DNA of 64,000 bases from Pagrus major (lineage: Eukaryota; Chordata; Actinopteri; Spariformes; Sparidae): the NCBI RefSeq assembly GCF_040436345.1, contig NC_133215.1, forward strand, positions 22,929,806 through 22,993,805. The letters run 5' to 3'. The notes under the pieces are model-generated. The model ran no database searches and had not been told where the DNA came from. It was given only the letters and a program-made list of their open reading frames with translations. The position numbers were made by a program, and so were the translations under genes. Positions 38,001 to 41,000 of this stretch are shown here, piece by piece (position 1 is the stretch's first letter; every line of letters begins with the position of its first letter).

Positions 38001-41000
38001 TAACAGAGAGGGTTTTCCCATGTGGAATGAATAACTTGTTGGAGTAAGTCCATAGCTAAATCAGAGAAAAAAAGGAAAATGAATACAAACAGGAACTTAC
38101 AGTACAAGTTAACTTAATTAAACAGCAATAACATAAACAACACAACTGGTGTATTTATGTGTCAATTTCAAGATTGTAAACTGCCATAAAGTTGTGAGGA
38201 GGGACAGCGAGCCCCGTCACAGTGGAGAGCAGACACAATGCTGTACCAAAGTCATACAGTCCTCCATCAGCACCCAGCAGCTGGAAGGACAGGGAACCTT
38301 GGCCTGCAGTAATAACAACAATGAGGGAAGCCCGAGTGGGAGTACTTCCAACCTCAACAGTACACACCGGTTACTGCCCTATATCAGCTCTACAGCGCTG
38401 CCACTAACATGGCTAAAAATCATTAACAGTATATTGTTTTATTCACTGATCGTCAAACACTGGCAGGTTATTTTCCATGTAATACACCAGAGCATTCCTA
38501 CCTGTCCATAGATTTTACCCGCCATTTCTTTTCCTGCCTGAAGCGTCTGGAAATTGGTATTCCAGATGCAGAGGAAGTCTGAAAAGAGCCATTCAAGAAC
38601 CACGCACACTTACATCAGATACTGCAGTCACATAGCTTCAAGTCATCATTCTAATGCATTTACTCTGCATACTCTTTTGTATGAATTTAATGTGTGTAAA
38701 AAGCTAATAAAACAGACAGCAAGGTAAGCAAACTTAGAACACTTTTTAGACACAGCTCTGGTATTGTGCAGGCCGACTGAAAACATTGCAGTGTATCCCA
38801 GATTGACTTCATTAAGCTCTGTCATGGATCATCATGGTCATTTTAGTGGGGTAAAAAAAAAACCAATCAGATATCTGAGCAGAGCATTTGTGGTCTTCAG
38901 TTAAAAGGAGTGTAATTAAACTGCGTTCACCTTTACCAGCTCCAGCAGAGGGGTGTGGAACCCCCACAACAGCTACATGGGCTTCATCTAGGACCTGGGC
39001 CGATGCTGCCTCCAGCAGGCCCTCGCCGACAGGAAGACCCAGCAGCAGACTTCGAGGCAACGCAAGAGCATGGGCCCCCTCGTCAGCCCCCAGGCCCCGT
39101 ACAGAGACAACGCTCTGGTACACATGACCATTAGGGTCTGGTTGGCAGGACAATGAAGGTAAAAAGTATTACTGAGGAAGTAGATTGGAGGGAACTAATG
39201 ACAGCCAACTTACTTAACTTCTATGTAATATATTGTGTTTTTGCATCATAAAGTTGACCTAAGTCTGTTTTTGATACCAAGTGTAGAATGCATTATGTAA
39301 TCAAAAGATATTCCACCCTACTGAAATCAATGGATCAGTGTTGGCTACTTATCTAAGTGGACACTGACACTGAATGACAGGGCTTGGGGCTCTCATTCAA
39401 GGCAACAGGCTTTAAATGTATTGTCCTTCTTTCTAAACCATTTACCCTTTAAAAACCACCCAGAGCAAAACTAGCTTTGTGCTGTTTAACAGTGACTGAT
39501 ATTAAATATATTTACGCAGGAAACTCAAGCTTACAGAGGTAAAGCAGGCAGATGTGTTTATCCCTGTAGGAGGCAGAGAAGCTGAGCGGGGAAAGACCGG
39601 GCTCCTCTCTCTCAAGCCGGTACCTCTGTAGGGTGTTGGGATTCAGTCTGTGCAGGTAGAGGAAATTGTCCCCTTTCTGTGGGAAGACATTAACAGCTGT
39701 TCACAGCAAACAGTCCTTTACAAATACAAGTCACAAAGAGTTGATGCACGTGTCCACAGACAAAACGAGTACAGACAAAATAAATGAGTCATAAGGCACA
39801 GGCACATAATTATGAACTAAAATGAATAGTCTTTACAGCTTAGTAGTGAATGCTTAATAATAAATTATTGACGTGAATTGTGTTTTTTCTCAAAAGCCAA
39901 ACAATTAAAATGATGTTACCTGTTCAGTTGTGAAGATGACAAACTGCTGTGACTCTGCAACTATGTTAGTGCTCCACCTAACAACAAACAGAAGCATCAT
40001 CAACACGCTACAAGAGACAACAGGTCAGACTGCAGAACAGCACGGCGCTATATTTGAAATATCACTGTCTGGGTTGTCAAAGATAGTGATGCTGACCTAA
40101 TGGCCTCTTCTTGAGCAAGGACTTCCTCTATAGGCTGCTGGGGAGCAGACAAGAGGGAGTCCAGGAGTCTCACAGCTCCTCTCTGGAACAAGACCACAGG
40201 CTCCCCTCCAGGCAAACAGTGAACCCTCCAGATATCTGATGACACCTGGAAAGAATAGATTAATAAGAAGCAGGCATGAGAATGCTTTTTAATCAGTGAG
40301 GGCACTTTTAATAATATCTTAACTTGGCTATTATATATGCTATGGAGAATTCTTGGATTAAGGGACTTTCTAAAAGGAAGTAAGTACTGTATTAGGAGGA
40401 CATTGTTGATTTGGTTTATATAACTAGTTACCATGTTGGAAAGCTGGATTGGTAAAGGTGGACATATTCTAAATAAAGAGACCACAGCCAAATGAGCATG
40501 AGGCAATTGCAACAAATATAAAACAGCTGCACAAACATTTTCTGACTAACAGTATTGAGAATAAAAAAAACTCAATGTGACATTTTAGAAGCGTAAACTC
40601 ACCCTATTCATAGGAACAGGATTTAAGGATTACACCGACCTCCATGTGACCATAAATCACCTCATCAGATTATGATTGGACTGGACAAAATATTCATGGA
40701 GTTAATATAGTATGTAAAGTAATCACATACAATAAGTGCTCCATGCTTAAGATTTCAGCTGTGGAAATGAAAATTCCATTTTCATTTTAGTTCAGTTTCA
40801 TTAATCCAGTCATTCAGATGAGGTACAATGGACATGTTCAAATAGAGCTCACACAGAGTGCTTTTCAATGTGAATAAAACCTCATCCAGCATGCTTGGTG
40901 GAATGCCATGAATGCCTATAAGGCTAGATTATCCAAAAGTGTACTGTTATCTCAAATCGATTCATCACGTCTCATCCCTCTCCAAGATATCAGGCTTTTC

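Follow-up and report, generated by a model that had tools for sequence, protein, structure and literature searches.

Organization of the nol11 locus

The window, which is the whole stretch of 64,000 nucleotides of Pagrus major DNA analysed here, carries on its minus strand a gene identified as NOL11 by its exons, which after translation and joining by eye match the NOL11_N family of Pfam (2.3e-52 and 2.7e-26). An intron of this gene with a GT donor and an AG acceptor (38501..38056) encloses, on the host strand, a sequence that an earlier note had read as an H/ACA snoRNA located in nol11 intron 8. The number 8 comes from exons counted by eye in the open reading frames, and on this count the proposed position is the right one. 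The features of the locus are given below, where C10 denotes the contig that carries a related copy of the element in an eif4a intron.

38056..38501, minus strand: host intron, 446 nt, GT donor and AG acceptor; nol11 intron 8 by eye count
38155..38370, minus strand: open frame of 71 codons that spans the element, judged incidental (no Pfam match; disrupted in the C10 copy)
38172..38304, minus strand: probable H/ACA snoRNA, SNORA4-like, whole element with inferred ends (fold, template scan, shuffles, DNA search of its own genome)
38245..38303, minus strand: 5′ hairpin with a 9-bp basal stem, a pocket of 4+5 nt and an upper stem (template scan)
38239..38244, minus strand: box H, ACAGCA, which fits ANANNA (sequence, template scan)
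38181..38232, minus strand: 3′ hairpin with predicted guide pocket (template scan, target search)
38222..38227, minus strand: left guide strand CTCCAC, the same in the C10 copy, with 6 predicted pairs downstream of 18S U1347 (human numbering)
38186..38192, minus strand: right guide strand ACTTTAT, with 3 contiguous predicted pairs upstream of 18S U1347, against 5 for the C10 copy
38175..38177, minus strand: box ACA, 3 nt before the inferred 3′ end (sequence)

Architecture of the nol11 element

The minus-strand sequence 38304..38172 folds into two pocketed hairpins with an MFE of −49.6 and a z-score of −2.78, a result matched by one of 200 shuffles. The element displays the hairpin-hinge-hairpin-tail organization of box H/ACA snoRNAs, with a pocket in each hairpin and with upper stems that end at a distance from the boxes within the expected 14–16 nt. 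In the 5′ hairpin the end of the upper stem is separated by 14 nt from the hinge motif ACAGCA, which conforms to ANANNA. Similarly, 15 nt lie between the end of the upper stem of the 3′ hairpin and the ACA, and a further 3 nt lead from the ACA to the inferred 3′ end. The ACA box is paired in the unconstrained fold and unpaired in the template fold.

The template used to scan the window defines a hairpin by its box, an upper stem of at least 3 bp ending 14–16 nt before that box, a pocket with no fewer than 3 nt to the left and 4 nt to the right and a basal stem of at least 4 bp; a full match consists of two such hairpins with ANANNA between them and ACA at the end. Scanning both strands of the window returned 24 two-hairpin matches (8 on the plus and 16 on the minus strand), among which the nol11 element is top-scoring at −44.4, with the next among the matches listed at −32.4. 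Its 5′ hairpin scores −26.0. Eighteen locally dinucleotide-shuffled 64-kb strands (1.15 Mb) produced 178 template matches, the best of which reached −32.6, while shuffling the 133 nt in place yielded 6 matches from 3420 shuffles, the best at −29.7. The H/ACA anatomy of the nol11 element is well above chance, and these window-scale and in-place controls make a chance fold very unlikely. Both the fold and the template score support the anatomy described in the earlier note, namely two pocketed hairpins, an ACAGCA hinge and an ACA 3 nt before the inferred end. The length of about 131 nt given there was close, the present estimate being 132–133 nt, and the open frame that it counted as 70 codons is present with 71 (38370..38155). 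The template is specific rather than sensitive, as the related C10 copy fails as a two-hairpin match and passes with its 3′ hairpin only. Nor is the fold of the C10 copy any more stable than those of its shuffles (z −0.16).

A related copy in an eif4a intron

The genome was searched as DNA over 785,883,843 bases in 25 contigs, and the counts of places are lower bounds. With the nol11 element as query at least three places were found, comprising the window itself, an identical one on contig C4 and one on C10 at 76% identity (E 4.7e-16), a similarity that marks the nol11 and C10 sequences as homologous. The C10 copy as query listed the same three places (again at least three). Identity between the two copies amounts to 74–76%, with 97 of 131 aligned positions identical.

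The host on C10 is an eif4a gene; in tblastn its exons are about equally similar to human eIF4A1 and eIF4A2. The copy is positioned between the exon ending ITTDLL and the exon starting ARGIDV, in the eighth intron among the 10 exons shown by tblastn, or the ninth if residues 1–10 form an unhit first exon. Another intron of the same gene harbours SNORD10 (L007 8475-8614, minus strand; 78.8 bits, cut-off 37). Human SNORD10 resides in EIF4A1, and the C10 gene may therefore be a paralogue, not an orthologue, of the gene that hosts the chicken counterpart of ACA4. In the chicken catalogue (PMC2653536) this counterpart of ACA4 and snR83 is assigned to intron 9 of EIF4A2, and the target is given for its 3′ pocket. 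By our own count the C10 intron is the intron listed for chicken ACA4.

Differences between the nol11 and C10 copies are concentrated in the apical parts. Across the 133 nol11 positions, the core formed by stems, pockets, boxes and tail is identical at 80/99 and the apical parts at 17/34 (Fisher p 0.0013), with the border between the two drawn after the alignment was seen. The left guide strand is fully retained (6/6), the right guide strand agrees at 4/7 positions, the ACA is unchanged and box H agrees at 4/6 with ANANNA in both copies. When the 35 pairs of the nol11 fold are traced in the C10 copy, 24 are unchanged and 4 remain paired after a change on one side, so that 28/35 still form, while 7 are broken and none shows a compensatory change, this being a comparison of two distinct copies only. 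The pair structure was taken from the nol11 copy and the comparison therefore favours that copy. Outside the element the two loci show no similarity beyond that of shuffled sequence, in comparisons of 200 nt on its 5′ side and of 116 and 200 nt on its 3′ side, although the BLAST match extends 8 nt beyond the 5′ end.

Family assignment

At the curated cut-off, an Rfam search of the whole window returned the tRNA only and did not detect the nol11 element. When 201 bases around the element were searched at a relaxed threshold, the best same-strand match was SNORA4 (RF00394) at 18.6 bits (E 1.3, cut-off 56), slightly behind a bacterial family on the opposite strand (E 1). In the SNORA4 alignment the hinge, the guide strands and the ACA are in register and the 5′ hairpin is aligned at its base only. 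The match depends on the length of sequence given, SNORA4 being absent from the list when 2501 or 8701 bases were searched. For the C10 copy, SNORA4 is the sole Rfam match at E up to 10 (22.4 bits, E 0.18). Both copies score below the 56 bits of the family cut-off and are therefore named SNORA4-like, and the identification of the C10 copy as SNORA4 rests on its place and target, not on its Rfam score. A genome-wide search with the SNORA4 family, in which 52 of 78567 first-look candidates were scored, gave no listed match at E up to 10; this search is insensitive here, because two distinct copies exist and yet none was listed. Thus the Rfam SNORA4 model at its cut-off misses both the nol11 and the eif4a copies, and snoRNA lists of such genomes that are built from Rfam only may be incomplete.

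The nol11 element resembles SNORA4/ACA4 in the types and spacing of its boxes, in the left guide strand CTCCAC of the 3′ hairpin and in the 18S U1347 target predicted for that hairpin, and the genome also holds a related copy in an eif4a intron. In contrast, its host is nol11, its Rfam score lies far under the cut-off and its right guide strand is altered. Human NOL11 hosts SNORA38B, which is likewise of H/ACA type, and the earlier note had pointed to a covariance search against SNORA38 (RF00428). This family was rejected, with no covariance match at E up to 10 in the searched stretches around the element; the relative is SNORA4 instead, and the common host of SNORA38B and the nol11 element looks coincidental.

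Predicted target of the 3′ pocket

Targets were sought in a partial set of human rRNAs and snRNAs (28S in part) together with two fetched LSU contigs of eukaryotes. In the predicted stem register of the nol11 3′ pocket, a search for uridines offering at least 3 pairs per side and at least 8 in total left a single candidate, 18S U1347, with 3+6 Watson-Crick pairs. The C10 3′ pocket fits the same uridine with 5+6 pairs. Two neighbouring registers of the nol11 pocket gave 1 and 7 other matches, all in the fetched LSU contigs. Shuffled guides equalled the observed score in 42/300 cases over the whole target set and in 48/3000 over 18S alone, and 36/3000 had a match in 18S at U1347 itself. Since shuffles can reach the score, the prediction leans instead on its coincidence with the published target and with the uridine that the C10 pocket fits. 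The table in PMC3542256 assigns human ACA4 to 18S U1347 and yeast snR83 to 18S U1290, the same site, which is also the one predicted for the nol11 element. A different site, 18S-1367, is assigned to SNORA15 in a review table (PMC6466398). Some other guides in the chicken table are given with duplexes of 3+6 and 6+3 nt (PMC2653536).

The 5′ pocket of the nol11 element has no convincing target in this set, with 2 matches in the predicted register (both in L001), 1 and 0 in the neighbouring registers and 84/300 shuffled guides doing as well. For the C10 5′ pocket, whose register is ambiguous, 28 registers were tried and gave scattered matches that were not interpreted, the best being 28.5 in a 28S piece, 25 at 18S 1444 and 24.5 at 18S 681.

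Probable origin and possible function of the nol11 element

Taken together, the template scan, the shuffles and the relative in the eif4a intron are best explained if the element is an H/ACA snoRNA encoded on the same strand as its host nol11, as the earlier note had suggested. Judged from its sequence, it is probably an intron-encoded box H/ACA snoRNA and a paralogue of the SNORA4 (ACA4) gene of the eif4a intron that has moved into nol11. It looks like a plausible new gene of a well-known class and not a new kind of element; a search of literature listings showed no paper on an H/ACA RNA in a fish nol11. A SNORA4-type gene would have been copied from the eif4a intron into nol11 intron 8. The eif4a position would be the older one, the direction of the move being suggested by the position in chicken and by that in human. 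SnoRNAs are documented to move from one intron to another among broadly expressed genes (PMC3511168).

We infer that the nol11 element is expressed and active. After splicing, the RNA would be freed from the nol11 intron and processed to about 132 nt; it would associate with dyskerin, NHP2, NOP10 and GAR1, and the 3′ pocket would help to turn 18S U1347 into pseudouridine. The 5′ hairpin may have a structural role or be an orphan guide. With no more than 3+6 pairs left, the nol11 guide may be less efficient than the eif4a copy. If this reading is true, a relocated copy of an old guide RNA has been added to a gene that acts in ribosome making, and the two copies constitute a pair for testing how much guide pairing suffices.

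The weak right guide strand, with 3 pairs against 5 in the eif4a copy, makes a dead or decaying SNORA4 copy that has lost expression or guiding the main rival. This view agrees with the prediction, for most of the vertebrates examined in PMC10234308, that fewer of the annotated snoRNAs are expressed than not. Against decay, the nol11 copy has a better fold (z −2.78) than its eif4a relative (z −0.16), it retains its boxes, pockets and box spacing with divergence concentrated apically, and H and ACA motifs are reported in the same study as commoner in expressed than in silent H/ACA snoRNAs. On balance we regard decay as unlikely, but as an alternative to be taken seriously.

Returning to an active paralogue, a more speculative and rather doubtful extension is that nol11 harbours a lineage-specific second SNORA4 gene with a share in, or a tuning effect on, modification at 18S U1347, acting as a separately regulated guide of low efficiency that would lead to variable Psi1347, or that this gene is en route to a new target. 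A target that has already changed, reached through the altered right strand or the 5′ pocket, is improbable. The right guide strand does differ at 3/7 positions and the 5′ hairpin is strong, but no better vertebrate rRNA or snRNA site was found in the partial target set, and neither the few matches of the 5′ pocket nor its shuffled controls favour another uridine. Least probable of all, and very remote, is a nol11 cassette exon or a chance fold: the open frame, the CTGCAG just before the element and the GTACAG within it could suggest an exon with its splice sites, but the frame has no Pfam match and the element's relative lies in an intron of an unrelated gene. In the C10 copy, moreover, a stop codon interrupts the frame and a 2-nt gap shifts it (alignment read by eye), which makes an exon unlikely, while the shuffled controls argue against chance.

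Other features of the DNA

A region of at least 18.7 kb that includes nol11 (window 34484-53245) is duplicated on C4:37704600-37723381 (L006, L008) with 98.9–99.9% identity. The C4 duplicate ends at an N gap of 2500 bases and its other end was not reached, its length thus being a minimum. It probably reflects either a second haplotype retained in the assembly or a duplication that happened very recently.

The window also contains a tRNA-Ser (AGA) gene at 33615-33696 on the plus strand, with 64.7 bits in Rfam. On the minus strand, positions 38816-38880, which probably belong to the preceding nol11 intron, gave a weak match of SNORD12 type (23.8 bits against a cut-off of 43) that was set aside as probably due to chance.

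Scans for eukaryotic rRNA in viral contigs found none. Eukaryotic LSU rRNA is present on contigs titled as bacterial MAGs (L001, L002). In L002 the LSU contains an insertion, and the contig ends, soon after the rRNA, in GGGGTTT repeats (by eye). Given the eukaryotic LSU rRNA and this repeat end, the MAG bins seem to contain eukaryotic contigs.
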